NCBI RefSeq assembly: GCF_004000215.1
Contig: NZ_RBVY01000011.1
Span: forward strand, 32,601-96,600
Source of the DNA: Nitratireductor alexandrii
Lineage (GTDB): Bacteria > Pseudomonadota > Alphaproteobacteria > Rhizobiales > Rhizobiaceae
Length of the DNA: 64,000 nt
Direction: 5' to 3'
Shown: positions 30,203 to 46,487 of the stretch, piece after piece
Layout of the letters: every line of letters begins with the position of its first letter
How positions within the stretch are numbered: the stretch's first letter is position 1
Position numbers and translations under genes: made by a program
The notes under the pieces: generated by a model
Seen by the model: the letters and a program-made list of their open reading frames with translations, nothing else
Databases searched by the model: none
What the model was told of the DNA's origin: nothing

Positions 30203-30215
30203 AGGCGGGGTAGAC

Positions 30216-31281: not shown

Positions 31282-32823
31282 ATGAACGTGCAAGCCAGCC
31301 ATATCCGAACCGAATTCCTGCCGATGACCGGCAAGGAGTATTTGGAAAGCCTGAATGACGGCCGGGAGGTTTGGATCTACGGCAAGAAGATCAAGAATAT
31401 CGCCGAGCATCCGGCGTTTCGCAACGCCGCGCGCATGATCGCGCGCTTCTACGATGCCTTGCACGACGACAAGCGCCGGGACATCCTGACCTGTCCGACC
31501 GAGTGGGGTGGGCGTACGCATCGCTATTTCCGCGCTCCGAAATCCGTTGGCGAGCAGATTGCGGCGCGCGACGCCGTGGCCGAGACGCAGCGCATCTCCT
31601 ATGGCTGGATGGGGCGCTCGCCCGACTACAAGGGCTCCTTTCTCGCCACGCTCGGCGCCAATTTCCAGTACTACAAGGGCTATGAAAACAACGCGCTGCG
31701 CTGGTACCGCAAGGCGCAGGAGCGCACCTGGTACATCAACCACGCGATCATGAATCCGCCGGTCGACCGCAACGCAAAAAGCGCCGACCAGTCGGATGTG
31801 TATGTGCGGGTCGAAAAGGAGACCGACGCGGGCCTGTATGTCAGCGGGGCCAAGGTCGTGGCGACGGCCTCCGCCCTGACCAACTACACTTTCGTGGCGC
31901 ATGCCGGGCAGATTCCGATCAAGGACGCCGCGTTCACGCCGGTGTTCATCGTTCCTACAGGCGCGCCGGGCGTCAAGATGGTGTCCCGGGCTTCGAACGA
32001 ACATCGCGCCGCCGTGCTGGGCAGCCCGTTCGACTATCCGCTTTCCAGCCGCATGGACGAGAACGACGCGATCCTCATCCTGGATAACGTCTTCGTGCCC
32101 TGGGAAGACGTCTTCATGTACGGCGATCCGGAGCTGTCCAACGACTTTGCCCCGGGTTCCGGTTTCAACTCGCGGGCGGCGATGCACGGCTGCACCCGGC
32201 TCGGGGTCAAGCTCGACTTCATCACCGGCGCGCTGAAGAAGGCGCTGGACATCAACGGCACCTCCGCCTTCCACGGGATCCAGTCGCGTCTGGGCGAGGT
32301 CATCGCGTGGCGCAACACGATGTGGGGCCTGAGCGATGCCATGGCCAAGTCCAACGTCGAGTGGAACGGGATGGTGCAGCCGGATTCGCGCTTCGGAACC
32401 GCGTATCGCACGATCAGCCAGATCGCCTATCCGGCGATCAAGAACATCATCGAGGCGAGCGTGGCGTCGGGCCTGATCTATCTCAACAGCCATGCCGACG
32501 ACTTCAAGAGCGAGGAGCTCCGGCCGCATCTGGACCGCTATCTGCGCGGTACCGGGGGCGTCGAGGCGATTGAGCGCATCAAGCTCATGAAGCTGTTGTG
32601 GGACTGCGTCGGCACCGAATTCGGCGGCCGCAGCGAACTCTACGAGATCAACTATCTCGGGTCGAACGATCTGACGCGCCTGCAGAACTATTGGGAAAGC
32701 CTGAGCCTCGGCGAAATGGAGAAGATGACCTCGATGGTCGACGAGTGCATGTCCGAATACGACCTCGACGGCTGGACGGTGCCCGATCTGATCAACAACG
32801 ACGATGTCAGCGTCCTGAAGTGA
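31282..32823 (+). CDS. HpaB-type FADH2-dependent monooxygenase oxygenase, copy 1
   Basis: A 513-residue member of the 4-hydroxyphenylacetate 3-hydroxylase (HpaB) family, an acyl-CoA-dehydrogenase-like fold that uses reduced flavin supplied by a separate reductase to hydroxylate a phenolic or heteroaromatic ring. Typical segments: MTGKEYLESLNDGREVWIYG near the start, WGRTHRYF-like CPTEWGGRTHRYFRAP, MGRSPDYKGSF, ERTWYINHAIMNPPVDRN and LDNVFVPWEDVFMYGD. Length is normal. GAAGGAGG stands before the ATG. A close paralogue lies 1.5 kb downstream and a flavin reductase 3 kb downstream. The substrate is unknown. Confidence 0.88.
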   Translation: MNVQASHIRTEFLPMTGKEYLESLNDGREVWIYGKKIKNIAEHPAFRNAARMIARFYDALHDDKRRDILTCPTEWGGRTHRYFRAPKSVGEQIAARDAVAETQRISYGWMGRSPDYKGSFLATLGANFQYYKGYENNALRWYRKAQERTWYINHAIMNPPVDRNAKSADQSDVYVRVEKETDAGLYVSGAKVVATASALTNYTFVAHAGQIPIKDAAFTPVFIVPTGAPGVKMVSRASNEHRAAVLGSPFDYPLSSRMDENDAILILDNVFVPWEDVFMYGDPELSNDFAPGSGFNSRAAMHGCTRLGVKLDFITGALKKALDINGTSAFHGIQSRLGEVIAWRNTMWGLSDAMAKSNVEWNGMVQPDSRFGTAYRTISQIAYPAIKNIIEASVASGLIYLNSHADDFKSEELRPHLDRYLRGTGGVEAIERIKLMKLLWDCVGTEFGGRSELYEINYLGSNDLTRLQNYWESLSLGEMEKMTSMVDECMSEYDLDGWTVPDLINNDDVSVLK

Positions 32824-32870
32824 GTGCCGGGGGCGAAGCGCCCCGAACCCAAATCAAGAGGAGAGAAGCA

Positions 32871-33806
32871 ATGCCCAGAGCAGTCGATCTGGCCTATGTG
32901 CGATACCAGGTCCCCGACCTCGACAAGATGCAGACCTTCATGGAGGATTTCGGTCTGATCACGGCCAAGCGGACGGACGACGTCCTGCTCATGCGTGGCG
33001 GCGGTGTGGCCCCGGTCGTGCACATTACCTACAAGGGCGACAAGAAGTTCCTCGGCGGCGCGCTCATCATGAGCAGCAAGGAGGATCTCGAGGAACTGGC
33101 CAAGCTCGAGGGCTCCGGACCGGTGGAAGAGATCACCGATCTGCCGGGCGGGGGCTGGCGTGTCCGCATGCAGCACCCCGACGGGCTGGAGATCGACGGC
33201 GTGTGGGGTCAGGAGCCGGTCGAACCGATCGAGCATCGTTCCTCCCACCACTTCAACTGGGGCGACCGCAAGGAACGCGTGAACCAGTCGCTGCGGCCGC
33301 AGCGCGAGCCCGGGCTTGCGCTGAAGCTGGGCCATTTCGTGCTGAAGGTGCGCGATCACGACCAGACGCTGGCCTGGATGCGGGAGCGTTTCGCGATGTT
33401 GGACAGCGACAAGATGATCGTTCCCAGCGTGAACAAGGCCGTCGGCACTTTTATCCGCTTCGATCTCGGCAGCGAACTCGTCGATCACCATTCGATCCTG
33501 ATCAACGAGGCCTCGGAGGTCGGCTGCCACCACTGCGCCTTCGAAATGCAGGACTTCGACGCCGTCATGGGCGCGCACGACTACCTGGTCAGCAAGGGCT
33601 ACCACCTCGATATCGGCGTGGGGCGCCATCTGATCGGCAGCCAGATCTTCGATTATTGGACGGACCCGTTCGGCAATCGCATCGAGCACTACACCGACGG
33701 CGACGCCAACACCGCCGAATACAAAGGCAAGGACTACTACCTCGACGACGAAGGGCCGACCAAGTCGCAATGGGGCATGGATCCGACGCCCGAATTCTTC
33801 CGCTGA
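32871..33806 (+). CDS. extradiol ring-cleavage dioxygenase (VOC superfamily)
   Basis: A 311-residue two-domain type I extradiol dioxygenase. The C-terminal domain provides the iron ligands expected from the family: His155 (KLGHFVL), His220/221 (GCHHCAFEM) and Glu272 (NRIEHYTDG). The segment GRHLIGSQIFDYWTDPFGNR contains the conserved Tyr and Asp-Pro of the family signature. It would split a catechol-like ring next to the hydroxyl pair. AGAGGAGAG precedes the ATG. Position between the hydroxylase and a Rid-family gene fits ring opening followed by enamine hydrolysis. Confidence 0.82.
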   Translation: MPRAVDLAYVRYQVPDLDKMQTFMEDFGLITAKRTDDVLLMRGGGVAPVVHITYKGDKKFLGGALIMSSKEDLEELAKLEGSGPVEEITDLPGGGWRVRMQHPDGLEIDGVWGQEPVEPIEHRSSHHFNWGDRKERVNQSLRPQREPGLALKLGHFVLKVRDHDQTLAWMRERFAMLDSDKMIVPSVNKAVGTFIRFDLGSELVDHHSILINEASEVGCHHCAFEMQDFDAVMGAHDYLVSKGYHLDIGVGRHLIGSQIFDYWTDPFGNRIEHYTDGDANTAEYKGKDYYLDDEGPTKSQWGMDPTPEFFR

Positions 33807-33846
33807 ACCGCGCGGTCGATCAATCCAGCAAGAAAAGGAGCTGAAC

Positions 33847-34299
33847 ATGACGGCACTAAAGGAAATGAAGATGTCGAATGACAACGCCACCCCTTTGAAG
33901 AAGCAGCGCTTTATCACCGACAAGGTCGCCGAGTACCCCGAGGGCCACTGGTCGAACACGATCAGCGTCGGCGACCATATCTTCCTGTCGGGGTTCACTT
34001 CGCGTGCGAACGATCTCAAGAAGATCCAGGGCGTCGGAAGCGCCTACGAGCAGGCGAAGGTGATTTTCCAGAAGATCAAGGACTGCCTGGAAGGCGCCGG
34101 ATCGTCGATGGCCGACGTCGTGACCATGACGATCTACGTCACGAACATGGCCGACAACAAAGGCATCTGGGAAGCGCGCAAGGAGTTCTTCGAGGGCGAT
34201 TTCCCGTGTTCCACGCTGGTGCAGGTCGCGGGACTGGCCGATCCGGACATCCTGCTCGAGATCACCGCGCAGGCCTATCGGGGCAGCGGCAGTGACTGA
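33847..34299 (+). CDS. Rid/YjgF/UK114-family protein
   Basis: A 150-residue Rid protein with the family core HIFLSGFTSRAND, CLEGAGSSMADVVTMTIYV and the end region STLVQVAGLADPDILLEITA. Family members hydrolyse enamine or imine intermediates; 2-aminomuconate deaminase belongs here and acts right after extradiol cleavage of aminophenols. In this member the usual Arg of the xCxRxxV-type active region is not obvious (PCSTLVQV), so catalytic activity is uncertain. AAGGAG lies before the ATG. Its end overlaps the second hydroxylase by eight bases. Confidence 0.85.
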   Translation: MTALKEMKMSNDNATPLKKQRFITDKVAEYPEGHWSNTISVGDHIFLSGFTSRANDLKKIQGVGSAYEQAKVIFQKIKDCLEGAGSSMADVVTMTIYVTNMADNKGIWEARKEFFEGDFPCSTLVQVAGLADPDILLEITAQAYRGSGSD

Positions 34300-35860
34300 G
34301 GCGTCCGCATCGCGACAGAAGGGCGCCGGTAGCAATACCGGCGACTTCATGCCCTTCACCGGCCAGGAATATCTCGACAGTCTCAAGGACGGTCGCGAGG
34401 TCTGGATCTATGGCGAGCGGGTGAAGGACGTCACCACCCATCCGGCGTTCCGCAACGCGGCCCGGATGATCGCGCGGATGTACGACAAGCTGCACAATCC
34501 GGAATTTCGCGACGTTCTGACCGTGCCGACCGAATGGGGCGGCAGGACCCATCGCTTTTTCCGCGCGCCCAAGGATGCTGTGGAACAGCTTGCCCAGCGT
34601 GATGCGATTGCCGAATGGCAACGCACGTCTTGGGGCTGGATGGGACGTTCGCCCGACTACAAGGGCGCCTTCCTGGGCACGCTCGGCGCCAATGCCGACT
34701 TCTACAAAGGCTACGAAGCCAACGCGCTGCGCTGGTACCGCAAGGCGCAGGAACGGACCTGGTACGTAAACCACGCCATCATGCATCCGCCGGTAGATCG
34801 CGACCTGCCCACGGCGGACGGCTCCGACGTGTTCGTGAAAGTGGTGAAGGAAGACGATGCCGGCATCTATGTCTCCGGCGCCAAGGTCGTGGCGACGAAT
34901 TCGGCCCTGACGCATTTCACCTTCGTGGCACATGTCGCCCAGGTGCCGATCGCGGATCCGAAATTCGCGCCGGTCTTCATGGTTCCGACCGGCGCTCCAG
35001 GCGTGAAGCTGCTGTGCCGTGTCTCGAACGAATACCGGGCCGCGGCGATGGGCTCGCCCTTCGACTATCCGCTGAGTTCGCGACTGGACGAGAATGACGC
35101 CATCCTGGTGCTCGACAATGTCTTCGTGCCCTGGGAGGACGTGTTCATGCATGGCGATCTCGAGGTCGCCAACCGGTTCAATACCGGCTCCGGCTTTCTC
35201 GAGCGCGCCTCCTTGCACGGCTGCACGCGGTTCGCCGTCAAGCTGGACTTCATCGTCGGCCTGTTGACCCGCGCGCTCGAAATCACCGGCGCCAAGGGGT
35301 TCCACGGGGTGCAGGCGCAACTGGGCGAGGTGATCGCCTGGCGCAACAATTTCTGGGCGCTTTCCGACGCGATGGCCAAGAGTGCGGCGCCCTGGAACGA
35401 GATGGTCCGCCCCGACAGCGGCTTTGCCGGCGCCTATCGCGTGCTCAACCAGCACGCCATGCCGAAAATCAAGAACATCATAGAACAGATCGTCGCTTCG
35501 GGTCTGATTTACCTGAATTCGCACACCGCCGATTTCAAGGCGCCGGAAATCCGCGGTTATCTGGATCGCTATCTCAGAGGGTCGGGCGGTGCCGACGCCG
35601 TCGAGCGTGTCAAGGTGATGAAGATGTTGTGGGACGCCATCGGCACCGAGTTCGGCGCCCGGCACGAGCTCTATGAGATCAACTATATCGGCAGCAACGA
35701 CATCACCCGGCTGACCAATCTGTGGAACGCCCAGGCCAACCGAGACCTCGATCGGTTCAAGGCCTTCGCGCAGTCGGCGATGGACGAATACGACCTCGAT
35801 GGATGGACGGTGCCGGATCTGCTCGACCCGCAAGACGTCAACCTGTTCGGCAAACGCTGA
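34292..35860 (+). CDS. HpaB-type FADH2-dependent monooxygenase oxygenase, copy 2
   Basis: A 522-residue paralogue of the gene at 31282, visibly similar over its whole length (for example PTEWGGRTHRFFRAPKD, GWMGRSPDYKGAF, VFVPWEDVFMHGD and DEYDLDGWTVPDLL at the end). The GTG start overlaps the Rid stop; an internal ATG at 34349 is an alternative, but the paralogue also has residues before the equivalent Met. Two related oxygenases may hydroxylate successive positions or different substrates, or form a mixed enzyme. The adjacent flavin reductase is 36 bp downstream. Confidence 0.87.
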   Translation: MTEASASRQKGAGSNTGDFMPFTGQEYLDSLKDGREVWIYGERVKDVTTHPAFRNAARMIARMYDKLHNPEFRDVLTVPTEWGGRTHRFFRAPKDAVEQLAQRDAIAEWQRTSWGWMGRSPDYKGAFLGTLGANADFYKGYEANALRWYRKAQERTWYVNHAIMHPPVDRDLPTADGSDVFVKVVKEDDAGIYVSGAKVVATNSALTHFTFVAHVAQVPIADPKFAPVFMVPTGAPGVKLLCRVSNEYRAAAMGSPFDYPLSSRLDENDAILVLDNVFVPWEDVFMHGDLEVANRFNTGSGFLERASLHGCTRFAVKLDFIVGLLTRALEITGAKGFHGVQAQLGEVIAWRNNFWALSDAMAKSAAPWNEMVRPDSGFAGAYRVLNQHAMPKIKNIIEQIVASGLIYLNSHTADFKAPEIRGYLDRYLRGSGGADAVERVKVMKMLWDAIGTEFGARHELYEINYIGSNDITRLTNLWNAQANRDLDRFKAFAQSAMDEYDLDGWTVPDLLDPQDVNLFGKR

Positions 35861-35895
35861 GCCCGAGGCATTTCGAAAGCAAGAAGGAGGCTGCT

Positions 35896-36468
35896 TTGGC
35901 CAAGGCGGAACATGTCCCTCAAGCTCCTGAAGCGCAGAACTTCTCGCAGCGCGATTTCCGCGCTGCGATGGGGCAGTTCGCCTCCGGTGTCGTCGTGATC
36001 TCGACAGGCCGGGACGCCGAAATCCACGCCATGACGGCCAATGCGTTCATGTCGGGATCGCTGGCGCCCGTTCTCGTCCTGGTCTCGGTCGCCAAGACGG
36101 CGCGCATGCACGGCCGGATTGTCAGCACCCGCCAGTATGGCGTCAGCGTCCTGTCGCAGAGCCAGCAATGGGTATCGAACCATTTTGCGGGCAAGGCGGT
36201 TCCGGACCGCGTCCCGGCCTTCGATCAACTCGCCGATATTCCGGTCGTGCACGGCGCGATGGTGCGGCTGGCGGCGGATTTGGCGCACGAGTACGACTGC
36301 GGCGACCACACGCTGTTCGTTGGCGAGGTGCGGGCGCTGGAACTGCACCACGACCACCAGAAGCCGCTGCTCTACTACGGCGGCAGCTACCGCAACGTGG
36401 CCCCCCCGGATTGGAGCGTCGAGTCGGTGCCGGAGATCCTCTGGCAGGATCAGGGCTTTAGCTATTGA
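35896..36468 (+). CDS. flavin reductase (HpaC/RutF-like) for the two-component monooxygenases
   Basis: A 190-residue flavin reductase-like protein: FRAAMGQFASGVVVISTG at the start, MTANAFMSGSLAPVLVLVSV, YGVSVLSQSQQW and GDHTLFVGEVRALEL. It uses NAD(P)H to make FADH2 or FMNH2 for the HpaB-type oxygenases just upstream. The start is a TTG at 35896: a full GGAGG lies five bases before it, no ATG fits, and the family N-terminus begins shortly after. Confidence 0.87.
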   Translation: MAKAEHVPQAPEAQNFSQRDFRAAMGQFASGVVVISTGRDAEIHAMTANAFMSGSLAPVLVLVSVAKTARMHGRIVSTRQYGVSVLSQSQQWVSNHFAGKAVPDRVPAFDQLADIPVVHGAMVRLAADLAHEYDCGDHTLFVGEVRALELHHDHQKPLLYYGGSYRNVAPPDWSVESVPEILWQDQGFSY

Positions 36469-36516
36469 GCCCGCGAATAGTGAAGCAGTGAGACGACCAA
36501 GCCGGTGCAGGACAGG

Positions 36517-38934
36517 ATGAACAAAATCGTAAACGAGATGCCCGCTGGAACTGTGGTGACGCCGTCGCGACAGTTGAACCATAGCGGCATCGGCGCGCCG
36601 GTTCGGCGCCGCGAGGATCCGCGCCTGCTGACGGGAAAGGGGCGTTTCGCCGACAACATCACCATGACGCGGCAGCTGCGCGGCTACGTTCTGCGCTCGC
36701 CCGTGGCCCATGCCAAGATCAAGCGGATCGACGTCTCGCCCGCGCTGGACGTGCCCGGCTTGGTCGCCATCTTGACCGGCGAAGACTACGCGGCCGACGG
36801 TTGGGGAGACATTCCCTGCGTCAGCATCCCGCCGAACATAACGGGCGGAGGTTACCATGCCACGCCGTTCCCGCCACTGGCCACCGATCGCGTGCTTGCG
36901 GTCGGCACGGGGGTTGCCTTCATCGTCGCCGAAACCCTGGCGGCCGCGATCGACGTGGCCGAGCGCATCGAGGTCGAATACGACGAATTGCCGGTGGTGC
37001 CGACGCTCGAAGCGGCGCTGGCCGACAACGCGCCGCTCGTGTGGCCGCAGGCCAAGGGCAATCGTTGCTTCACGCACGAACTGGGCGATGCGGCGGCGGC
37101 CGATGCGGCGTTCGAGCGCGCCGAGCATGTCGTCCGCGCCAGGATCCGCAATCAGCGCGTGGCCGGCAATCCGATGGAGCCGCGCACCTGTATCGGCGCT
37201 TGGGATCCCGGCGACATGCGCTGGCAGCTCACCAGCTCCACCGCCAATCCGCACCGCATCAGGCTGATCCTGGCCGACCAGATCCTCGGCGTTCCCGCCC
37301 ATCGCGTCCATGTCGTCGCCGGCGACGTCGGCGGCGGTTTCGGCACCAAGGGCGGCATCTATCCCGAGGAAATCCTGGTGCTGTGGGCGGCACAGCGCAC
37401 CGGGCGTCCGGTCAAGTGGGTCAGCGACCGGTCGGAGGCCTTTCTGTCCGACTTCAACGGACGCGACCAGATCGCCGATGCCGAGTTCGCCTTCAACAAG
37501 GACGGCACGGTGCTGGGCGCCCGGATCGTCGTCAATCACAATCTCGGTTGCCAGCTCGGCCCGTCGACCGCGCATCCGCCGCTGGTCGGCACGCGGATGC
37601 TGTCGGGCGTCTACGCGATCCCGGCCATGCATGTGACGGTCAACGGCATCTTCACCAACAGCCGAACCCTGACGACCTATCGCGGTGCCGGGCGGCCCGA
37701 GGCGACCCTGGTCGTCGAGCGCATGATGGATCTGGCAGCCGAGGAATTGGGGCTGGCTCCCGACGAGATCAGACGCCGCAACTTCATCAGGCCGAACCAG
37801 ATGCCCTACACGACCTGCATCGGCGAGACCTACGATTGCGGCGAGTTCGAAGCCATCATGGATGAAGCGCTTCGGCTTGCCGACTGGGAGGATTTCGCGG
37901 CGCGCCGCGCGGACAGCGAAGCCCGGGGGCGGCTGCGCGGGCGCGGACTGGCGGTATATATCGAGGTCTGCGCCACGATCAGCGAACGCATGGAGGTCCG
38001 CTTCGACAGCGCGGGCGGGGTGACCATCCTTGCCGGCACGTTCAGCTACGGCCAGGGCCACGAAACCAGCTTCGTGCAGATGGCGCATGAATGGCTCGGC
38101 GTTCCGATCGAAAAGATCCGTCTGCTGCAGGGCGATACCGACAAGATCGCGACGGGCCGCGGCAGTTTCGGCTCGCGCAGCATGACCGTGGGCGGCTCCG
38201 CGCTCAAGCAGGCTTGCGAAAGCGTGATCGACAAGGGTACCCGGCTGGCCGCGATCATGCTTGAGGTCGATCCGGCTGAGATCGTGTTCGAGAGTGGCCT
38301 TTATCTGTGGAAGGCGGGCGATCAGCGCTCCGTGACGATCGACGAGGTGGCGAAGGCCAGCTTTGCCTGGAAGGGCGTGACCACCTATGCGTCCGGAGCG
38401 CTGAAATCGATCCCGGCGGATCTGTGGTCCGGGCTCGAAGGCATCGGCCATTTCTCGGCAAATCCGCAGAACTATCCCAATGGCTGCTACATCGCCGAGG
38501 TCGAGGTCGAGCCGGAGACCGGACAGGTTCACCTTGTCGGCGTGACCGCGGTCGACGATGTCGGCAATGTGGTCAATCCCCTTCTTTTGGAAGGGCAGAT
38601 CATGGGCGCCATCGCGCAGGCTGCGGGCCAGGCCCTGAAGGAGAAGGTGGTGCACGATGAGACCGGCCAGCTTCTGACGGGTGCATACACCGACTACGCC
38701 ATGCCCCAGGCCGGAGATTTCCCGCGCTTCAAGCTGGGCCTGCGGTCCGTCCCCACGGCGACGAATCCGCTGGGGGTCAAGGGCGGCGCTGAAGCCGGCA
38801 CCGTCGGCTTGCCGCCCGCCATCGTGTCGGCCGTCGTCGATGCCCTGCGTCCCTACGGGGTGCGCGACCTAAAGATGCCGCTGACGCCGATGTCGGTCTG
38901 GGAGGCGATGAACCCCGAAGGAGAAGAGGAATGA
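36517..38934 (+). CDS. molybdenum hydroxylase large subunit (xanthine dehydrogenase/CoxL family, form II)
   Basis: An 805-residue molybdopterin-cytosine-dinucleotide subunit. The N-terminal domain has GAPVRRREDPRLLTGKGRFA and the catalytic part GDVGGGFGTKGG, then TTYRGAGRPEATLV and GVKGGAEAGTVGLPPA with the Glu that abstracts a proton. The active-site loop AYRGAGR-like (TYRGAGR) marks form II enzymes; true aerobic CO dehydrogenase has AYRCSFR, so CO is not the substrate. It most likely hydroxylates an aromatic or N-heterocyclic ring with water. An ATG at 36517 is preferred over a GTG four codons earlier. FeS and FAD subunits follow. Confidence 0.9.
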   Translation: MNKIVNEMPAGTVVTPSRQLNHSGIGAPVRRREDPRLLTGKGRFADNITMTRQLRGYVLRSPVAHAKIKRIDVSPALDVPGLVAILTGEDYAADGWGDIPCVSIPPNITGGGYHATPFPPLATDRVLAVGTGVAFIVAETLAAAIDVAERIEVEYDELPVVPTLEAALADNAPLVWPQAKGNRCFTHELGDAAAADAAFERAEHVVRARIRNQRVAGNPMEPRTCIGAWDPGDMRWQLTSSTANPHRIRLILADQILGVPAHRVHVVAGDVGGGFGTKGGIYPEEILVLWAAQRTGRPVKWVSDRSEAFLSDFNGRDQIADAEFAFNKDGTVLGARIVVNHNLGCQLGPSTAHPPLVGTRMLSGVYAIPAMHVTVNGIFTNSRTLTTYRGAGRPEATLVVERMMDLAAEELGLAPDEIRRRNFIRPNQMPYTTCIGETYDCGEFEAIMDEALRLADWEDFAARRADSEARGRLRGRGLAVYIEVCATISERMEVRFDSAGGVTILAGTFSYGQGHETSFVQMAHEWLGVPIEKIRLLQGDTDKIATGRGSFGSRSMTVGGSALKQACESVIDKGTRLAAIMLEVDPAEIVFESGLYLWKAGDQRSVTIDEVAKASFAWKGVTTYASGALKSIPADLWSGLEGIGHFSANPQNYPNGCYIAEVEVEPETGQVHLVGVTAVDDVGNVVNPLLLEGQIMGAIAQAAGQALKEKVVHDETGQLLTGAYTDYAMPQAGDFPRFKLGLRSVPTATNPLGVKGGAEAGTVGLPPAIVSAVVDALRPYGVRDLKMPLTPMSVWEAMNPEGEEE

Positions 38935-39239
38935 CGCTTTATTCCGTGTATCGGATCGACCGCAGCGACGGTCGTGCCGCGGAGGTCCGGGCGGCGACGC
39001 GGCCGGCGCATCGCGAATACATGAGCCGGTTCGCCGATCGCGTTCGTTGCGGCGGCCCGCTGCTCGACGAAAACGGGGACGCCTGCGGCGGGCTGATGCT
39101 GATCGAAGCCGATTCCGAGGCCCAGGTGCGGGAAATCCTCGCAAACGACCCGTTCGAAATCGCCGGATTGTCGGAGCGCATCGAGGTGCTGGCCTTCCGC
39201 TGGCAGACCAATCGTCCTTCCGAAATGCCTCCGCTTTGA
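38931..39239 (+). CDS. YciI-like protein
   Basis: A 102-residue protein of the YciI/YCII ferredoxin-like fold: HREYMSRFADRVRCGGPLL, GGLMLIEADSEAQVREIL and ANDPFEIAGLSERIEVLAF. The family includes muconolactone-isomerase-like and dehalogenase-related members. The His in RPAHREY and the Asp in ANDPF are the usual conserved pair. It overlaps the large-subunit gene by four bases, so it belongs to the same transcript. Its role is unknown; lactone or ring-product handling would fit the context. Confidence 0.78.
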   Translation: MTLYSVYRIDRSDGRAAEVRAATRPAHREYMSRFADRVRCGGPLLDENGDACGGLMLIEADSEAQVREILANDPFEIAGLSERIEVLAFRWQTNRPSEMPPL

Positions 39240-39285
39240 CCCGCGAAACGGCGATGCCCGCGATATCAGAAGATCGGATAGTGAC

Positions 39286-39969
39286 ATGCAATTGACTGGA
39301 AGCCAGGACATCGAAGCCCCGCGCGAACGCGTATGGGACGGGCTGTTGGACCCCCGATTCTTGAAGGCTGCGATTCCCGGCTGCGAGTCCTTTACCCTCG
39401 ACGACGACGGCGCCTATTCGGCGGTCGTTCTGGCTTCGCTCGGCCCGGTGCGCGCCCGTTTCCGCGGGCGGCTGTGGCAGGAGGACCTGCATCCGCCGGC
39501 ACGTTGCACCCTGCGCTTCGAGGGCGAAGGCGGCATTGCCGGCTTTGCCAAGGGCAGTGCGCAGGTCGTGCTTGAAGACATCGACGGCGACACGGCGCGC
39601 ACCCGTCTCAGCTATAGCGCGGATGTGGCGATGGGCGGCCGGCTGGCGCAGATCGGATCGAGGCTGATCGACGCGACGGCCAAGCGCATGGCGGGGCAGT
39701 TTTTCGACAAGTTCGAAGCGCTGCTGAAGGACCCGTCGGCCCTGGCGGAGGGATCGGGGGAGGCCGCGGCCCCTGCTGCTTCCGGTGGCCAGGAGGCGTT
39801 CGGGTCTGACCGCGAGCCAGCGGCGGCCGTGCCTGGAAAAGCGGCGCTGGTCGCGGCCGCGCCCGCCGTTTCGCCGGCCGGCCAGTTCACGTTGCAGATG
39901 CCTGGCTGGGCCTGGGCCTTCACGGTTGCCGTCCTTGCCGCGGCCGCCGCCTGGCTTGGCACGCACTGA
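39286..39969 (+). CDS. CoxG-family (SRPBCC) protein
   Basis: A 227-residue protein. The first 150 residues match CoxG, an SRPBCC fold associated with molybdenum hydroxylases (MQLTGSQDIEAPRERVWDGL, PGCESFT, KRMAGQFFDKFEALL). An alanine-, glycine-rich linker follows and a final hydrophobic helix (about 205-225) that would anchor it to the membrane. In Oligotropha, CoxG helps to recruit CO dehydrogenase to the membrane; here it may do the same for this hydroxylase and link it to the respiratory chain. It lies between the large and small subunit genes. Confidence 0.85.
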   Translation: MQLTGSQDIEAPRERVWDGLLDPRFLKAAIPGCESFTLDDDGAYSAVVLASLGPVRARFRGRLWQEDLHPPARCTLRFEGEGGIAGFAKGSAQVVLEDIDGDTARTRLSYSADVAMGGRLAQIGSRLIDATAKRMAGQFFDKFEALLKDPSALAEGSGEAAAPAASGGQEAFGSDREPAAAVPGKAALVAAAPAVSPAGQFTLQMPGWAWAFTVAVLAAAAAWLGTH

Positions 39970-39981
39970 GAGGCGACGGTC

Positions 39982-40473
39982 ATGAACGAAGTCACGATCA
40001 CCGTTAACGGGGTTCCCGAAACCCATCAGGTCGAGCCGCGCATGTTGCTCGTCCATTTCCTGCGCGAACTCTGCGGGCTGACCGGCACCAATGTCGGGTG
40101 CGACACCACGCAATGCGGATGCTGCACCGTTCACCTGGACGGGCGGGCGGTCAAATCCTGCACGCTCCTGGCCGTGCAGGCGGACGGTTCGGAGGTGGCC
40201 ACGATCGAGGGGCTGGGAACCTCCGACAGGCTGCATCCCATGCAGGAATCGTTCAGGGAGCATCATGCGCTGCAGTGCGGCTACTGCACGTCCGGCATGG
40301 TGATGCAGGGGATCGACGTCGTGCGCAGCGGCATCGGCCATGACGAAAGGGCGGTCCGCGAGGCCCTGGAGGGCAATCTGTGCCGCTGCACCGGATATCA
40401 GAACATCGTCGATGCGATCATGGACGTTGCCCGCAACGCACCGGACTCATGCGGCGACGGTAGCGTGCGATGA
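39982..40473 (+). CDS. molybdenum hydroxylase small subunit (2x[2Fe-2S])
   Basis: A 163-residue iron-sulfur subunit. The plant-type cluster ligands are in GCDTTQCGCCTVHLDG and the following SCTLLAV; the second, all-helical cluster uses QCGYCTSGMV and NLCRCTGYQNI. It passes electrons from the molybdenum centre to FAD. It is 12 bp after the CoxG-like gene and overlaps the FAD subunit start by four bases. Length and motif order are typical. Confidence 0.94.
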   Translation: MNEVTITVNGVPETHQVEPRMLLVHFLRELCGLTGTNVGCDTTQCGCCTVHLDGRAVKSCTLLAVQADGSEVATIEGLGTSDRLHPMQESFREHHALQCGYCTSGMVMQGIDVVRSGIGHDERAVREALEGNLCRCTGYQNIVDAIMDVARNAPDSCGDGSVR

Positions 40474-41294
40474 ACCTTCCCGATTTCAAATACGAACGCC
40501 CGCAAAACCTGGACGCGGCTCTCGAGCTTCTGCGCGGCAACCCGCAAGCGCGCGTGCTGGCGGGAGGCCAGACGCTGATCCCCGCCCTCAAGCAGCGGTT
40601 GGACCGGCCGAGCGTGCTGATCGACCTGCGCGCGATCGCGGAGCTGCGCGGGATCGAGGTCTCCTCCACCCATGTGAGCGTGGGCGCGATGACGCGCCAT
40701 GCCGAAATCGCCGCCCATGCCGATATCGGCATGGCGATCCCCGCGCTGCGGCATCTGGCTTCGGGCATCGCCCATCCGCAGGTGCGCAACATGGGAACCA
40801 TCGGCGGTTCGATCGCAAACAATGATCCGGCGGCGGACTATCCCGCCGCCGTCGTCGGCCTCGACGCGACGGTTGAGACCACGAAGCGGCGCATCCCCGC
40901 CGACGCCTTCTTCACCGGATTGTTCGAGACGGCGCTCGAGCCGGAAGAGCTCGTCTTGCGGGTGCATTTCCGGGTGCCGCGCCGCGCGGGCTATCACAAG
41001 ATCGCCAACCAGGCATCGGGCTACGTCACGGTGGGGTGTTTCATCGCCGCGTTTGACGGGCAGATCAGGGTTGCCGTCAACGGCGCCGGCCCTTGCGTGT
41101 TCCGGCAGGCGGATTTCGAGGCCGCGCTGCGCGCAAACTGGTCACCGGACGCGATCAGGGACCTCAAACAGGATCCCGCGACCATGAACGAGGACATGCA
41201 TGCCAGCAAGCGCTACCGCGCGCATCTGGTCGCAGTGGCCGCCGCCCGCGCGCTGAACATGGCGGCCGGCGGATTGGAAATGGAGAAAGCCTGA
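40470..41294 (+). CDS. molybdenum hydroxylase medium subunit (FAD-binding)
   Basis: A 274-residue CoxM-like FAD subunit. AGGQTLIPALKQRLDRP and GTIGGSIANNDPAADYPA are the two FAD-binding signatures. It completes the three-subunit enzyme. The last base of its stop codon is the first base of the next start (ATG at 41294), showing tight coupling with the hydrolase gene. Confidence 0.93.
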   Translation: MNLPDFKYERPQNLDAALELLRGNPQARVLAGGQTLIPALKQRLDRPSVLIDLRAIAELRGIEVSSTHVSVGAMTRHAEIAAHADIGMAIPALRHLASGIAHPQVRNMGTIGGSIANNDPAADYPAAVVGLDATVETTKRRIPADAFFTGLFETALEPEELVLRVHFRVPRRAGYHKIANQASGYVTVGCFIAAFDGQIRVAVNGAGPCVFRQADFEAALRANWSPDAIRDLKQDPATMNEDMHASKRYRAHLVAVAAARALNMAAGGLEMEKA

Positions 41295-42148
41295 TGAAGT
41301 TGATGTCTTACGTGACGCCGTCCCGAGCCAGTTTCGGAGTGGCGGACGGCGAGCGGGTGTTCGATCTTGGTTGCCGGCTCGGTGGCGATCTGGTCGCGTT
41401 GCTGCGCGACGGGGGGCTGGAACGTGCCGCCGCTGCCGTCAAGGGCGCGAGCGCCGACTTTCATCTGGACGATTTGTGCTTTTTGCCGGTCGTGCCCAAT
41501 CCGGGCAAGATCGTCTGCGTCGGGCTGAACTACAAGGCCCACCGCGCCGAGGGCAACCACGACACCGAAAAGCCGGCCGCGCCGTCGCTGTTTCTGCGTA
41601 CCGCGGAATCGCAGACCGGCCATGGGCGCGCGCTCGTGATCCCGCGCGAAAGCGATCAGTTCGACTTCGAGGCGGAGATGGCCGTGGTGATCGGCAGGGC
41701 CGGCAGGCGCATCCCCCGGGCCAGGGCGCTGGAGCACGTGGCGGGCATATCCTGCTACAATGACGGGTCGGTCCGCGACTGGCAATTGGCCGTCAACCAG
41801 TGGACCGCCGGCAAGAACTTCCCCGCGACCGGCTCGTTCGGCCCATGGATGGTGACCGCCGACGAGATCGCGCCCGATAGCAGCCTGGCCTTGAAATGCC
41901 GCCTGAACGGCCAGGTCATGCAGGACACGACCACCGATCTGATGATGTTCGACCTCGCCGAGCAGATCGAACACGTCTCGACCTTCATGACACTCAATCC
42001 CGGCGACGTGATCGTCACCGGCACGCCGGGCGGCGTCGGGCTTCGCCGGGATCCGCCAGTCTGGATGAAGCATGGCGACACGGTCGAAGTCGAACTCGAA
42101 GGCGTCGGCATCCTGCGCAATACGGTCGTCAAGGAGCCCGCAGCGTGA
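41294..42148 (+). CDS. fumarylacetoacetate hydrolase-family enzyme
   Basis: A 284-residue FAH-family protein: N-terminal small domain to about residue 70, then GKIVCVGLNYKAHRAE, the metal site ESDQFDFEAEMAVVIGR, SCYNDGSVRDWQ, and FGPWMVT and GDVIVTGTPGGVG. Members hydrolyse, decarboxylate or isomerise 2-oxo acids from ring cleavage (FAH, HpaG, MhpD-like). It starts one base inside the preceding stop and ends overlapping the aldolase gene. It probably processes the ring-opened product. Confidence 0.88.
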   Translation: MKLMSYVTPSRASFGVADGERVFDLGCRLGGDLVALLRDGGLERAAAAVKGASADFHLDDLCFLPVVPNPGKIVCVGLNYKAHRAEGNHDTEKPAAPSLFLRTAESQTGHGRALVIPRESDQFDFEAEMAVVIGRAGRRIPRARALEHVAGISCYNDGSVRDWQLAVNQWTAGKNFPATGSFGPWMVTADEIAPDSSLALKCRLNGQVMQDTTTDLMMFDLAEQIEHVSTFMTLNPGDVIVTGTPGGVGLRRDPPVWMKHGDTVEVELEGVGILRNTVVKEPAA

Positions 42149-42888
42149 CGCAGACCGCGCCCATTTCCGACGCCCTGCGCCGGACGCTCGAGACATGCGA
42201 TCCCGCCAGCTTGGCCAATGCGCTCCTGAAACGGGGGCTGCGCAACAGCTTCATGGTCGGCCTGTCGCCGGTGGCGGAGAACCAGCCGCGACTCGTCGGG
42301 CCAGCCTTCACCTTGCGCTTCATTCCCGCGCGCGAGGATCTGGACACGATGGCGCTCTACGCCACCGAGGAGAGCCTGCACCGGCGCGCTATCGAAGAAT
42401 GTCCTCCGGGTGCGGTCCTGGTCATGTCGACCGGGGGCGACCGGCGCGCATCGTGCATGGGCGACATGATGGCGCTCCGCCTCAAGACGCGCGGCGTCGC
42501 CGGGGTGGTGACCGATGGCGGCTATCGCGACAGCCCCGGTGTGGCGGAGACCGGCCTGCCGTGTTTTCAGGCGGGGCCGTCGGGACCGGCCACGCCGATC
42601 GCGTTGAGTCCGGTGGCGTTCAACGATCCGATCGGCTGCGCGGGCGTGCCGGTCTATGCCGGCGACATCGTCGTCGCCGACAAGAGCGGGGTCGTGGTGC
42701 TGCCGCGCCATCTGGCCCAGGAGGTCGCCGACGAGGTCGCCGCCGCCGGCGATTACGAAACGTTCGTCGCCGCGCATATACGGCGCGGCCGCTCGATATT
42801 CGGCCTGTTCCCGGCCACGCCCGACAGCCGGAAGGAATACGAAGCCTGGGTGGCCGCCGGCCGCCCCAACCTGGAGGAAGATGCATGA
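42145..42888 (+). CDS. RraA-like / 4-hydroxy-4-methyl-2-oxoglutarate aldolase-family protein
   Basis: A 247-residue protein of the RraA fold. The segment MGDMMALRLKTRGVAGVV followed by TDGGYRDS contains the conserved Arg and Asp used by HMG/CHA aldolases to bind the metal and oxaloacetate-like group. Such aldolases cut 4-carboxy-4-hydroxy-2-oxoadipate or related acids to pyruvate. Start is GTG at 42145, overlapping the hydrolase stop, with AAGGAG nearby. In this cluster an aldolase completing meta-cleavage is the natural reading; an RNase E inhibitor role is unlikely. Confidence 0.83.
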   Translation: MTQTAPISDALRRTLETCDPASLANALLKRGLRNSFMVGLSPVAENQPRLVGPAFTLRFIPAREDLDTMALYATEESLHRRAIEECPPGAVLVMSTGGDRRASCMGDMMALRLKTRGVAGVVTDGGYRDSPGVAETGLPCFQAGPSGPATPIALSPVAFNDPIGCAGVPVYAGDIVVADKSGVVVLPRHLAQEVADEVAAAGDYETFVAAHIRRGRSIFGLFPATPDSRKEYEAWVAAGRPNLEEDA

Positions 42889-43316
42889 ACGCGGAACAAA
42901 AGGCTGCGTTGGCGCAGTCGCTCGAAGTGTTGATCGACCGCGACGCGCTGGATGCGGACAAGTGGCTGGACTTCCCCGATTACGGTCTGCGCCAGTATTT
43001 TCTTTGGAAGAACCCGGAAACCGGCGCCTCGATCGCGATCCTGGAGTTCGACAAGGGAGGGCATATTCCCGTCAAGCACATCCATGCCTCGAACCAGTTC
43101 ATGTACTGCCTTGAGGGCGACTACGAATATACCGATGTCGGGCTGCGGCTGAAACCCGGCAGCTTCTACATGAACCCGAAGGACAACCCGCACGGGCCGA
43201 CGCTGGCGCACGAGAAAAGCGTCCTGATCGAGATCTATGACGGGCCGCATTATTACGAAAAGCCGGTGTTCCACACCGATGAGACCATCGGGGATTTTCT
43301 GCACAAGGGCGACTGA
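42885..43316 (+). CDS. cupin-domain protein
   Basis: A 143-residue single-domain cupin. HIPVKHIHASNQFMYCLEGD has the first motif (His-x-His and the downstream residues) and PGSFYMNPKDNPHGPTLA the second with its His. Cupins bind a metal and may be dioxygenases, isomerases or decarboxylases; no closer function is recognisable. Four-base overlap with the aldolase gene places it in the operon. Confidence 0.8.
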   Translation: MNAEQKAALAQSLEVLIDRDALDADKWLDFPDYGLRQYFLWKNPETGASIAILEFDKGGHIPVKHIHASNQFMYCLEGDYEYTDVGLRLKPGSFYMNPKDNPHGPTLAHEKSVLIEIYDGPHYYEKPVFHTDETIGDFLHKGD

Positions 43317-43407: not shown

Positions 43408-44259
43408 ATGAGACTCGTCCGATCCTTTCAAGAACTTGCCGACGGCGACCGGCGCGCCTGCGCCGCGATCGGCAATTTCGATGGCGTGCACTTCGGTCAT
43501 CGCGCCATCATCGACACGGCACGCAAGCAGGCCCTGCGACACGGCGGCCCGCTGGGAGTGGTGACCTTCGAGCCGCATCCGCGGGCGTTTTTTTCGCCCC
43601 ATGCTGCGCCGTTTCGGCTTACCGATTGCCGGACCAGGGCCGAGCGCCTTGAAAGGCTCGGTGTCGACTGCCTGTTTGAACTGGCGTTCGACCGCGAGAT
43701 GGCCGGCCTGTCGCCGGAAGACTTCGCGCGCCTGGTTATCTGCGACGGGCTCGATCTTCGGCATGTGGTGGTCGGTGAAAATTTCCGCTTCGGCAAGGCC
43801 CGTGCCGGCACCACGGACACCTTGCTTGAACTGGGTCGCGCGCTCGGCTTTGGCGTCACGGTCTTACCGCTGCTGCGCGCTTCGACACAGCAGATCTCCT
43901 CCACCGCGATACGCAACGCGCTGCTGGCCGGCCAGCCGCGCGTCGCCGCGCGCGGCATGGGCGAGTTCCATCGCATCGCCGGAAGGCTGCGCCATGTCCA
44001 AAGCAACCGATTCAGGCTGACGGCGATGGAAGGAGGCCGCGTGCGCACCGACCTCATGGAGCCGCGGGCGGGCCTCTACTCCGTCGGAATCCAGCGTGAG
44101 GGCGGCGCGCGCCTGGCCGGCACCGCTGCAATCGGCCATCGCCTGCCGCCCTACGACAAGCCGCTGGAAATCGACCTGCGGGTCTTCGGCGGCGATGCCT
44201 CGCTTCACGTGGAGGAGGCCTGCGTGGTCCTGCTGGACTATCACGGCTGCCCGGTCTGA
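43408..44259 (+). CDS. RibF-like FAD synthetase with degenerate riboflavin-kinase domain
   Basis: A 283-residue protein. The N-terminal adenylyltransferase domain is intact: IGNFDGVHFGHRAIID, GVVTFEPHPRAFF, VVVGENFRFG and ISSTAIRNALL. The C-terminal half aligns with riboflavin kinase (GLYSVGIQREGG, LEIDLRVFGGD) but lacks the GxPTAN motif that binds ATP and magnesium, so it may only adenylate FMN or have lost both-step function. A housekeeping RibF is normally elsewhere. In this operon it would supply FAD to two monooxygenases and the hydroxylase FAD subunit. The ATG at 43408 begins 91 bp after the cupin. Confidence 0.8.
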   Translation: MRLVRSFQELADGDRRACAAIGNFDGVHFGHRAIIDTARKQALRHGGPLGVVTFEPHPRAFFSPHAAPFRLTDCRTRAERLERLGVDCLFELAFDREMAGLSPEDFARLVICDGLDLRHVVVGENFRFGKARAGTTDTLLELGRALGFGVTVLPLLRASTQQISSTAIRNALLAGQPRVAARGMGEFHRIAGRLRHVQSNRFRLTAMEGGRVRTDLMEPRAGLYSVGIQREGGARLAGTAAIGHRLPPYDKPLEIDLRVFGGDASLHVEEACVVLLDYHGCPV

Positions 44260-44336: not shown

Positions 44337-45557
44337 ATGACGAACAGCGACGCGACGCAAGCCATCGACGGTGCTCTCACCGGCCTCAGGGTGATCGAGA
44401 TGGGCAGTTTCATCGCCGGGCCCTTCTGCGGTCAGGTCCTGGCCGACCTCGGCGCCGAGGTCATCAAGATCGAACCGCCGAGGCGTGGCGATGCCATGCG
44501 GCAATGGGGCGTGGAAACGCTCAATGGCCGCAGCCTGTGGTGGCCGGTCATCGCCCGCAACAAGAAATCGCTCACTCTCGACCTTCGCGAGAACGCGGGG
44601 CGCGAGATCGCGCGCAAGCTGATCGGCCAGGCGGACGTTCTGGTCGAAAACTTCCGTCCGGGCACGCTCGAGAAGTGGGATCTGGCTCCCGCGCGCCTGA
44701 TGGGGGCCAATCCCAAACTCGTCATCGGCCGGGTGTCGGGTTTCGGCCAGACCGGGCCCTATTCGAACCGCACCGGTTTCGGGGCGATCGCCGAGGCGAT
44801 GTCGGGCGTCCGCGCTCTGTGCGGCTTTCCCGATCGGCCGCCGCCGCGCATGGGCCTGTCGGTGGGCGACAGCGTGGCCGGGCTTTTCACCTGTATCGGC
44901 ATCCTCTCGGCGCTTCACGGCCGCGCCCTTACCGGCAAGGGGCAGGTGGTGGATGTCGGCATTACCGATGCAATGCTTGCCATGTGCGAGAGCGTGCTGT
45001 CGGAGCATGGCGCGACCGGGGCCGTGCGCGAACGCGCGGGCACCGGCCTGCCGCGGATCGCGCCGTCGAACCTCTATCCGACCGTGGACGGCAAGTGGCT
45101 GCTGATCGCCGCCAATGGCGATGCGATTTTCGAACGGCTGACCCAGGCCATGGCACGCCCGGAACTGGCCGGGGACCCGCGCTTTGCCGATCATCGCAGC
45201 CGCGGCCAGCATCAGGCCTTGCTCGACGACATCGTCGCGGAATGGACGAAAACCCTGACTAGGGATGCGCTTTTGGCCCGCCTGAACGATTACGGCGTGC
45301 CGGCGGGACCGATCAACGACGCGGCCGACGTGTGCGCGGACCCGCATTTTCGTGAGCGCGGCGCCGTCATCGAAGTGGCGAGCGAGACCTATGGGCCGGT
45401 TGTGATGCAGGGCGTTGTGCCGCGGCTGTCGGCCAATCCGGGACGCGTGCGCTGGGTGGGGCCCGAGCTTGGCGAGCACAATGTCGAGATACTCACGCAA
45501 GCGCTCGGCCTTTCCCCGAACGAGGTCGAGGCTCTGGGCAAGCGCGGCGTGGTTTGA
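44337..45557 (+). CDS. class III (CaiB/BaiF) CoA transferase
   Basis: A 406-residue family III CoA transferase. LRVIEMGSFIAGPFCGQVLA and GAEVIKIEPPRRGD form the N-terminal signature, and MGLSVGDSVAGLFT contains the expected catalytic Asp. It activates a carboxylic acid with CoA from a donor such as succinyl-CoA. It lies 3 bp before the HMG-CoA-lyase-like gene, suggesting that the acid it activates is the lyase substrate, for example a 3-hydroxy-3-methylglutarate-like acid. It is related to, but clearly different from, the transferase at 23955. Confidence 0.88.
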   Translation: MTNSDATQAIDGALTGLRVIEMGSFIAGPFCGQVLADLGAEVIKIEPPRRGDAMRQWGVETLNGRSLWWPVIARNKKSLTLDLRENAGREIARKLIGQADVLVENFRPGTLEKWDLAPARLMGANPKLVIGRVSGFGQTGPYSNRTGFGAIAEAMSGVRALCGFPDRPPPRMGLSVGDSVAGLFTCIGILSALHGRALTGKGQVVDVGITDAMLAMCESVLSEHGATGAVRERAGTGLPRIAPSNLYPTVDGKWLLIAANGDAIFERLTQAMARPELAGDPRFADHRSRGQHQALLDDIVAEWTKTLTRDALLARLNDYGVPAGPINDAADVCADPHFRERGAVIEVASETYGPVVMQGVVPRLSANPGRVRWVGPELGEHNVEILTQALGLSPNEVEALGKRGVV

Positions 45558-45560
45558 GCC

Positions 45561-46487
45561 ATGGTCATCCATTCAGACGACAACCGGGCCGGTTCGCCCT
45601 TGCGCCGCGCGCAGTCCGTGTCGATCACCGAGGTCGGTCCGCGCGACGGCCTGCAGAACGAGACCCGGCTGATGCCGAGCGACGAAAAGACGGAGCTGAT
45701 CGAGCGGCTGGCGGGTGCCGGCTGCACCGAAATCGAGATCACCTCGTTCACGCATCCCAAATGGATTCCGGCGCTGGCGGATGCCGAGGAGGTGGCGCGG
45801 GCTACCGGACGACTGGGCATTACGCGTTTCGGGCTGGTGCCGAACCGCCGCGGCCTCGAACGGGCACTGGCGGCAGGCGTGGAAGGCGTGACGCTGGTGA
45901 TGTCGGCCAGCGAGGGGCACAATCGCGCCAATCTGAACCGTTCGGTCCAGGCGTCATTGAACGATTTGTCGGCGCTTCACGAGGAGGCCCGGGCTGCGGG
46001 GCTCGTGACCAGGGTGTCGCTGTCGGTCGTGTTCGGCTGCCCGTTCGACGGTGCCGCGGATCTCGACAAGGTCGTCCGGCTGGCCACGCGGCTTGCCAAA
46101 GCCGGCGCCGACAGGATCGGGCTGTGCGACACGGTGGGCATGGCGAACCCGTTGCAGGTCGAGGCTTTTTGCCGGCGCTTGATGGAGGAGCTGCCCGAGG
46201 TCGATTTCGAGCTGCATCTGCATGACACGCGCGGCTTGGCCCTGGCGAACGCCTATGCCGGATGGCGGGTGGGGATTCGGCGGTTCGACGGGGCGGTCGG
46301 CGGGCTGGGAGGCTGCCCGTTCGCGCCCGGCGCGAGCGGCAATGTGGCGACCGAAGCCCTGGATGCGATGTTCGCCGCCATGGGCGTCGACACGGGACTG
46401 TCTGCGCAGGCGCTAGGCCCTATCGGCGCCGATCTGGTCCGATGGCGCGATTGCGCGCCGCCGCAAGGCCTCGACGCGAGCGCCTGA
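45561..46487 (+). CDS. hydroxymethylglutaryl-CoA lyase-like enzyme
   Basis: A 308-residue HMGL-like TIM barrel. EVGPRDGLQNE carries the metal Asp, LHLHDTRGLAL the two metal histidines, and GGLGGCPFAPGASGNVATE the catalytic Cys loop that is the family signature. It would cleave HMG-CoA or a similar 3-hydroxy-3-methyl acyl-CoA to acetyl-CoA and a 3-oxo acid. Three base pairs after the CoA transferase, it forms an activation-cleavage pair and closes the plus-strand catabolic run. Confidence 0.9.
   Translation: MVIHSDDNRAGSPLRRAQSVSITEVGPRDGLQNETRLMPSDEKTELIERLAGAGCTEIEITSFTHPKWIPALADAEEVARATGRLGITRFGLVPNRRGLERALAAGVEGVTLVMSASEGHNRANLNRSVQASLNDLSALHEEARAAGLVTRVSLSVVFGCPFDGAADLDKVVRLATRLAKAGADRIGLCDTVGMANPLQVEAFCRRLMEELPEVDFELHLHDTRGLALANAYAGWRVGIRRFDGAVGGLGGCPFAPGASGNVATEALDAMFAAMGVDTGLSAQALGPIGADLVRWRDCAPPQGLDASA

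Follow-up and report, generated by a model that had tools for sequence, protein, structure and literature searches.

What does a run of sixteen closely packed genes in Nitratireductor alexandrii break down, and by which reactions? The genes lie at 31282-46487 of a 64,000-nucleotide stretch, hereafter the window (G000:C3:32601-96600; G+C 65.3%; assembly size 4.87 Mb), and an earlier note, made from the sequence alone, had proposed for them an undescribed pathway for aromatic or N-heteroaromatic compounds. The observation of a 16-gene cluster was confirmed in our analysis and its interpretation was partly supported. Our reading, which we hold with as much belief as doubt, is that the cluster serves to degrade, aerobically and by an extradiol (meta) route, an aromatic compound that is hydroxylated and contains nitrogen. 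That the substrate contains nitrogen is likely; between a position in the ring and an exocyclic one we do not decide.

All sixteen genes are on the plus strand and, as first described, many overlap: 6 of the 15 junctions do so (Rid/HpaB2 by 8 bases; MoL/YciI, MoS/MoM, FAH/RraA and RraA/cupin by 4 each; MoM/FAH by 1), and the remaining nine are gaps of 3-91 bp. The original naming of the enzymes agrees with Pfam and NCBIfam, which return two HpaB oxygenases, a VOC extradiol dioxygenase, a Rid protein, a flavin reductase, the large, iron-sulfur (FeS) and flavin adenine dinucleotide (FAD) subunits of a molybdenum-cofactor (MoCo) enzyme, CoxG, YciI, FAH, RraA, a ChrR-type cupin, FAD_syn, CoA_transf_3 and HMGL-like. 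Starts were refined for the dioxygenase (32871), flavin reductase (35896), FAH (41294), RraA (42145), cupin (42885) and RibF-like (43408) genes. Upstream stands a three-gene sugar-type ABC importer, whose 3' end lies 58 bp ahead of HpaB1; it is preceded by a divergent LysR gene for which PcaQ is the nearest model, under that model's cut-off. No Rfam families or transfer RNAs were reported in the window. The genes are as follows.

26442..27413, minus strand: LysR regulator, PcaQ-like (PcaQ model 183 bits, cut-off 303.8)
27477..28622, plus strand: TorT-like periplasmic binding protein of the sugar-type ABC importer (NF008185 TorT 329.8 bits, cut-off 200)
28658..30202, plus strand: ABC importer ATPase (46-61% relatives in loci L014, L020, L034 and L067)
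30132..31223, plus strand: ABC importer permease (BPD_transp_2; 52-70% relatives in L014, L020, L021, L034 and L067)
31282..32823, plus strand: HpaB1, flavin-dependent oxygenase (Pfam/NCBIfam; 67% identity to HpaB2)
32871..33806, plus strand: VOC extradiol ring-cleavage dioxygenase, core (Glyoxalase/dioxygenase fold; weak C23O/HpaD matches)
33847..34299, plus strand: Rid protein without the RidA arginine, core (Ribonuc_L-PSP)
34292..35860, plus strand: HpaB2, flavin-dependent oxygenase (relatives at 71-87%)
35896..36468, plus strand: flavin reductase, presumably serving the HpaB oxygenases (Flavin_Reduct)
36505..38934, plus strand: molybdenum (Mo) hydroxylase large subunit MoL, proposed aldehyde oxidiser (best NCBIfam model glyceraldehyde dehydrogenase alpha, 583 bits, cut-off 790)
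38931..39239, plus strand: YciI-like protein (Pfam/NCBIfam; present in 12/79 loci)
39286..39969, plus strand: CoxG-like protein (PF06240)
39982..40473, plus strand: Mo hydroxylase [2Fe-2S] subunit MoS (Pfam/NCBIfam)
40470..41294, plus strand: Mo hydroxylase FAD subunit MoM (Pfam/NCBIfam)
41294..42148, plus strand: FAH-family hydrolase/decarboxylase, core (PF01557; best NCBIfam model 2,4-didehydro-3-deoxy-L-rhamnonate hydrolase, 177.6 bits, cut-off 500)
42145..42888, plus strand: RraA-like aldolase, core (Arg-Asp pair aligns with HMG/CHA aldolase 3NOJ)
42885..43316, plus strand: cupin, proposed dienedioate hydratase, core (Cupin_7)
43408..44259, plus strand: RibF-like protein, FAD synthetase domain alone, accessory (FAD_syn; no flavokinase domain at E <= 0.001)
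44337..45557, plus strand: class III coenzyme A (CoA) transferase, doubtful member (PF02515)
45561..46487, plus strand: HMG-CoA-lyase-like enzyme, doubtful member (PF00682; NF004283 322.8 bits, cut-off 246)

The genome-neighbourhood search that had been proposed was run with the cupin as probe and found the gene set widely. Across 84,980 species genomes, 246 stretches matched one or other of two peptide patterns, and 117 of them coded for a relative; the 80 best of these yielded 79 loci, a capped list tied to the cupin probe, whose neighbourhoods were read by tblastn with the window proteins. The loci fall in Proteobacteria and Actinomycetes. The core gene set consists of the VOC dioxygenase, Rid, FAH, the RraA aldolase and the cupin; all four other core genes accompany the cupin in 33 of the 79 loci, three or more do so in 52, and the VOC dioxygenase was found in 50. 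In the betaproteobacterial locus L021 the order is ABC permease-HpaB-VOC-Rid-FlvR-MoL-YciI-CoxG-MoS-MoM-RraA-cupin, without a second HpaB and FAH. This order and the 33 loci with the full core indicate clustering beyond chance. The closest cupin among the 79 loci (85% identity) is that of L009. Within the same bacterial order as the window, the dioxygenase occurred in just 3 of 397 genomes, its own counted (E <= 1e-30); one of them (G144) has a cupin at 73% identity together with VOC, Rid, CoxG and Mo hydroxylases, with no HpaB on the stretch read.

Two plasmid records of the cluster (Streptomyces; Gemmobacter, L103) give generic product names only, and in two further plasmid records that hold a VOC relative the surrounding genes differ. 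Two 20-kb loci (L046, L073) have Rid, FAH and cupin beside an ABC importer but lack VOC, so that this trio may also serve compounds needing no such ring cleavage. The binding protein of these two loci looks PotD-like by eye; the L028 relative has no NCBIfam match at 1e-10. Two Nocardioides genomes (L127-L130) hold a variant in which a 49-50% cupin is accompanied by genes for Mo enzymes and by flavin monooxygenases of a different kind (named by eye). Genes for a GMC oxidoreductase, a carboxymuconolactone-decarboxylase-family protein and a SnoaL/NTF2-like protein accompany the TorT-like importer in Mo-type clusters (L092 677-2152, L103 24325-32779).

Two positions in the cluster are filled by different enzymes in different genomes. 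Calls were made at identity thresholds of 60% (HpaB), 33% (second Mo hydroxylase), 45% (MoL), 50% (the aldehyde dehydrogenase (ALDH) ALDH7), 35% (Rid) and 29% (FAH), and contig ends cut some of the loci. Across the 50 VOC loci the hydroxylase is HpaB in 27, an FAD monooxygenase (flavoprotein) in 11 and an XdhA-like Mo hydroxylase in 8, with none seen in 4; above the thresholds, two kinds never share a locus. The aldehyde oxidiser is ALDH7 in 35 and a CoxL-like Mo enzyme in 11, never both, with none seen in 4. Naive probabilities of this disjointness, which ignore relatedness, are 3.7e-8 for ALDH7/MoL, 3.6e-5 for HpaB/FAD monooxygenase and 9e-4 for HpaB/XdhA-like. A quick VOC tree (51 rows), with a long-branch warning that covers the window's row, needs at least 5 changes of type for the hydroxylase and 4 for the aldehyde oxidiser.

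Three of the FAD monooxygenases exceed the PRK07538 cut-off of 400, at 511-536 bits. In other genomes the second Mo enzyme, nearest XdhA (606 bits, cut-off 780), would be a ring hydroxylase. The ALDH7 of the relatives is nearest L-piperidine-6-carboxylate dehydrogenase (579.3 bits, cut-off 730), an enzyme whose substrate is an amino-semialdehyde. Because MoL is exclusive with ALDH7 and scores best, under the cut-off, to an aldehyde-oxidising Mo model, it is most likely an oxidiser of the ring-fission aldehyde and not of the ring. Carbon monoxide dehydrogenase was considered for it and rejected (CoxL TIGR02416 484.3 bits, cut-off 991.15). The earlier note had taken Rid and the Mo hydroxylase together as a hint of nitrogen in or on the ring. 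The Rid half of this argument fits nitrogen in the ring-fission product; the Mo hydroxylase half is not supported, given the ALDH7 exclusivity and the aldehyde-oxidising model.

The HpaB relatives split into HpaB1-closer and HpaB2-closer groups, those of L011, L015, L016, L021 and L023-L025 being nearer HpaB1. In a search of 16 genomes (E <= 1e-60), one copy of this type was present in Polaromonas, in two Advenella and in Pseudomonas, and two in Paracoccus. Each HpaB type thus occurs alone, so the route need not include two hydroxylations in a row, each by its own HpaB. Other HpaB-family genes lie elsewhere in the Streptomyces and Enterobacillus genomes (G405, G411), at 58% and 56%.

In the route and step order that we infer, the TorT-like ABC importer would take the compound up, and HpaB1/HpaB2, with reduced flavin from the reductase, would hydroxylate it beside an existing hydroxyl. 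The VOC dioxygenase would open the ring to an amino/imino semialdehyde, and the CoxL-like Mo enzyme, replacing the ALDH7 of most relatives, would convert the aldehyde to the acid. Rid would hydrolyse the enamine with release of ammonia, the cupin would add water to an oxo-dienedioate, and RraA would perform a retro-aldol cleavage to pyruvate and a second fragment, in the simplest case malonic semialdehyde. FAH would tautomerise, decarboxylate or hydrolyse one intermediate.

These last steps draw on several comparisons. Rid is present in 46 of the 50 VOC loci; its nearest solved structure is PA3499, and 2-aminomuconate deaminase comes fourth of 46 (E 1.1e-9). The cupin relatives at 49-77% share invariant HxHASNQFM and HGPT motifs, and no solved relative was found at E <= 0.001. 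A structural model of the cupin (mean predicted local distance difference test score 85.4) is nearest acetylacetone dioxygenase, 2,4'-dihydroxyacetophenone dioxygenase (DAD) and KdgF, with template-modelling (TM) scores of about 0.6, and model and fold search together may accommodate a dioxygenase, an isomerase or a hydratase. RraA retains the Arg-Asp pair of HMG/CHA aldolase in an alignment to 3NOJ, a pair whose catalytic roles are described in the available part of PMC5065237. In the lumichrome (lum) pathway, according to the accessible portion of its description, the 16 kDa cupin LumY hydrates a dienedioate and the 26 kDa aldolase LumX cleaves the product to pyruvate and acetoacetate (PMC12746152); the window cupin (143 aa) and RraA (247 aa) agree with these reported sizes. 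By analogy, the same chemistry on a methyl-free substrate would be expected to end in pyruvate and malonic semialdehyde. This predicted product fits two genes: one for a malonic semialdehyde reductase (256.6 bits, cut-off 152) in the genome of L060, about 10 kb upstream of the Mo-type dioxygenase there (L091), and another so named by RefSeq in the Gemmobacter cluster L103.

Several observations weigh against the route as drawn, and our arguments need to be read with them in mind. The exclusivity of the swaps depends on the thresholds: in two XdhA-like loci (L059, L061) an HpaB relative is present as well, with only 34% identity, L057 combines an FAD monooxygenase with small Mo subunits without the XdhA-like large subunit, and eight actinomycete loci have an additional HsaA-like oxygenase adjoining HpaB. 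The loci that break the pattern are distant or incomplete relatives. Of all 79 loci, 29 are without the VOC dioxygenase, some through short contigs. Rid has a Ser where 2-aminomuconate deaminase (6IZH) keeps an Arg. The best cupin folds are carbon-carbon cleaving dioxygenases and KdgF, with no hydratase named among the 50 matches listed. The likeness of cupin and RraA to LumY and LumX is kept as an analogy only, homology to LumY being unproven. In 215 Nocardioides genomes, a set that N. simplex possibly falls outside, a profile search with the cupin gave no lum-like locus among the matches inspected; it gave other Rid-cupin-FAH and RraA loci. Finally, nitrogen within the ring would not lead directly to a C6 oxo-dienedioate.

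The nature of the substrate is where other explanations have to be weighed. Beside Rid, the pointers to nitrogen are the amino-semialdehyde-type ALDH, the XdhA-like hydroxylase, an NCS1/cytosine-permease-like transporter in 14 of the 16 actinomycete loci (cytosine permease model, 45 of 326 bits; RefSeq uses that name) and a corrinoid methyltransferase protein in an Aminobacter cluster (L062 12898-13677; 196.7 bits, cut-off 370). An MttB-like methyltransferase, named by eye, stands near the core in Aminobacter (L090 6012-7613), and with the corrinoid protein it hints at a quaternary N-methylated substrate. It is possible, if somewhat less than probable, that the substrate is N-heteroaromatic: a hydroxypyridine-type compound, perhaps N-methylated or sulfated upstream, would be converted to a dihydroxypyridine diol, nitrogen would stay inside the cleaved chain, and Rid would act on a 3-aminoacrylate-like enamine, like RutC, to give malonic semialdehyde. 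The replacement of HpaB by the XdhA-like hydroxylase in 8 of 50 loci, the NCS1-like transporter, the nearby malonic semialdehyde reductases of two genomes and the TorT-like binding protein would all suit this, as would the permease of the kpi 4-hydroxypyridine cluster, whose homologues transport N-heterocycles according to the part of the source available (PMC7356986). But diol cleavage would leave amide or N-formyl groups, and the core is without an amidase or deformylase; a true aldehyde for ALDH7 is harder to draw, and cupin and RraA are left without a clear role. The series of aldehyde, hydratase and aldolase steps is drawn most easily on a carbocycle with an exocyclic amine, which argues against ring nitrogen.

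An exocyclic amine could also be handled by an aminophenol route, in which HpaB makes an aminocatechol that VOC and the oxidiser convert to an amino-hydroxymuconate; the dioxoadipate formed from this by Rid would be cleaved by FAH acting as an acylpyruvase. The VOC, the amino-semialdehyde-type dehydrogenase and Rid suit such a modified meta-cleavage, the best-scoring model for FAH is a hydrolase of 2,4-diketo acids (177.6 of 500), and a similar 4-aminocatechol route is proposed for 2,4-diaminotoluene in the accessible text of PMC7118221. We nevertheless regard this route as unlikely, as it has no step for cupin and RraA and leaves the XdhA-like hydroxylase in HpaB's place and the NCS1-like permease unexplained. 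A nitrogen-free phenolic pathway, with Rid just clearing reactive enamines from side reactions, appears quite improbable: HpaB, VOC, ALDH, FAH and an aldolase are the usual homoprotocatechuate enzyme types, but Rid recurs in nearly all VOC loci and overlaps HpaB2 in the window, and the relatives' ALDH is of the amino-semialdehyde type. A further alternative concerns the gene unit and is compatible with our extradiol reading of the core. We lean towards two or more adjacent operons, the core ending at the cupin and an unrelated RibF-CoA transferase-lyase group following. The largest two gaps, and the only ones above 60 bp among the sixteen genes, come after the cupin (91 and 77 bp), and none of the three following genes was detected in the 4 kb past the L009 cupin. 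Against this, a RibF-like gene stands in the same place in Polaromonas L015 (33% identity). A flavokinase-bearing gene is present elsewhere in the window's genome (G000:C38).

For the nitrogen-containing extradiol pathway that we favour, we therefore place the conserved unit at 26442-43316. The boundaries first given had left out the importer and regulator, which recur beside the cluster in L014, L020, L034 and L067 (LysR relatives at 45-47%, binding-protein relatives at 54-61%). The last three of the sixteen genes appear accessory or separate, since they do not recur as a set and are sporadic in other loci; the CoA activation and HMG-CoA-lyase-like cleavage once assigned to the pathway are accordingly not supported as parts of it. 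The cluster is probably an operon and probably inducible.

More tentatively, we suggest that one core in two phyla accepts several nitrogen-containing hydroxyaromatics and brings them to a single ring-cleavage product. Its hydroxylases (HpaB, FAD monooxygenase, Mo hydroxylase) would be interchangeable, as would the aldehyde oxidiser that follows, and an arginine-less Rid, a cupin hydratase and RraA as retro-aldolase would then yield pyruvate and malonic semialdehyde. If true, this would give a function to genes that a Streptomyces record calls just 'VOC family protein', 'cupin', 'RidA family' and 'dimethylmenaquinone methyltransferase', with carriers ranging from Streptomyces to Variovorax, and meta-cleavage biochemistry would gain a deaminating Rid/cupin/RraA finish. 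The role assignments are directly testable, since the ALDH7 and Mo enzymes should share one aldehyde.

Other genes of the window deserve mention. At 19070-20737 lies a sulfatase/phosphodiester-hydrolase-like gene (best PehA, 315.6 of 900 bits), relatives of which (44%) occur next to the cluster in Polaromonas (L015, 15834) and in Massilia (L017, 14826); the incoming substrate may be an aryl sulfate. A second class III CoA transferase (23955-25115) has 54% and 48% relatives near the clusters of Paracoccus L016 and the betaproteobacterium L021, each accompanied by a LysR1-like gene (36% and 32%). Downstream, at 46508-55887, three FAD oxidoreductase genes surround a transporter that is TAXI-TRAP by eye; one belongs to the DAO family (Pfam) and two are weakly like N-methyltryptophan oxidase, ThiO and sarcosine oxidase.

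How does this pathway compare with known systems? By kind we take it to be an extradiol ring-cleavage pathway, and the gene set matches no named pathway that we found, as had been suspected; no description of it was found in the open-access main texts searched. The 4-hydroxyphenylacetate (4-HPA, homoprotocatechuate) pathway shares its enzyme types (HpaB/flavin reductase, extradiol dioxygenase, aldehyde oxidation, an FAH-family enzyme and a pyruvate aldolase). It proceeds by HpaF/HpaH/HpaI-type steps, in place of which the window has Rid, RraA and cupin. The ordinary 4-HPA pathway was rejected on curated cut-offs: the two HpaBs reach 625.4 and 655.4 bits of the 885.2 of TIGR02310 and the VOC dioxygenase 58.1 of the 321.4 of HpaD TIGR02295, and FAH is also under its curated cut-off. 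Pfam and NCBIfam show no ALDH, and hence no HpaE, among the 16 genes; the ALDH7 present in the relative L022 reaches 261.6 of 638.35 against the HpaE model.

The 2-aminophenol/3-hydroxyanthranilate (3-HAA) route (amn, nba) runs from ring-fission semialdehyde through a dehydrogenase to a Rid deaminase, the same order as proposed for the window, and the Rid-family deaminase expected for it is present. Ring cleavage in amn/nba is by LigB-type or 3-HAA-type enzymes, whereas the window has VOC, the only recognised ring-cleavage dioxygenase among the 16 genes, with no aminophenol or 3-HAA dioxygenase; its Rid also lacks the 2-aminomuconate deaminase arginine. Gallate/protocatechuate 4,5-cleavage uses LigB-type dioxygenases and, unlike the window, no Rid. 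It does share an RraA-fold HMG/CHA aldolase as last step, as far as the available text describes it (PMC5065237).

The kpi 4-hydroxypyridine pathway resembles the window in its flavin hydroxylase, ring cleavage, FAH and permease, and its FadR-family regulator recalls the GntR-type regulators of some cluster relatives. It was rejected as an exact match, since in the accessible part of its description the ring is cleaved by an amidohydrolase-fold enzyme, an alpha/beta hydrolase serves as deformylase, and the gene table lists no Rid, RraA or cupin (PMC7356986). The lum lumichrome (riboflavin) pathway was likewise set aside as an exact match: it uses a P450, pyrimidine hydrolases, a thiamine pyrophosphate (TPP) decarboxylase and a Rieske dioxygenase, and the available portion of its account names no HpaB or Rid (PMC12746152). 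Pfam and NCBIfam found no P450, TPP decarboxylase or Rieske genes among the window's 16. What lum has in common with the window, in that same portion, is FAH, a xanthine-oxidase-type enzyme and a catechol dioxygenase and, by size and proposed role, its 16 kDa cupin hydratase and 26 kDa retro-aldolase (PMC12746152).

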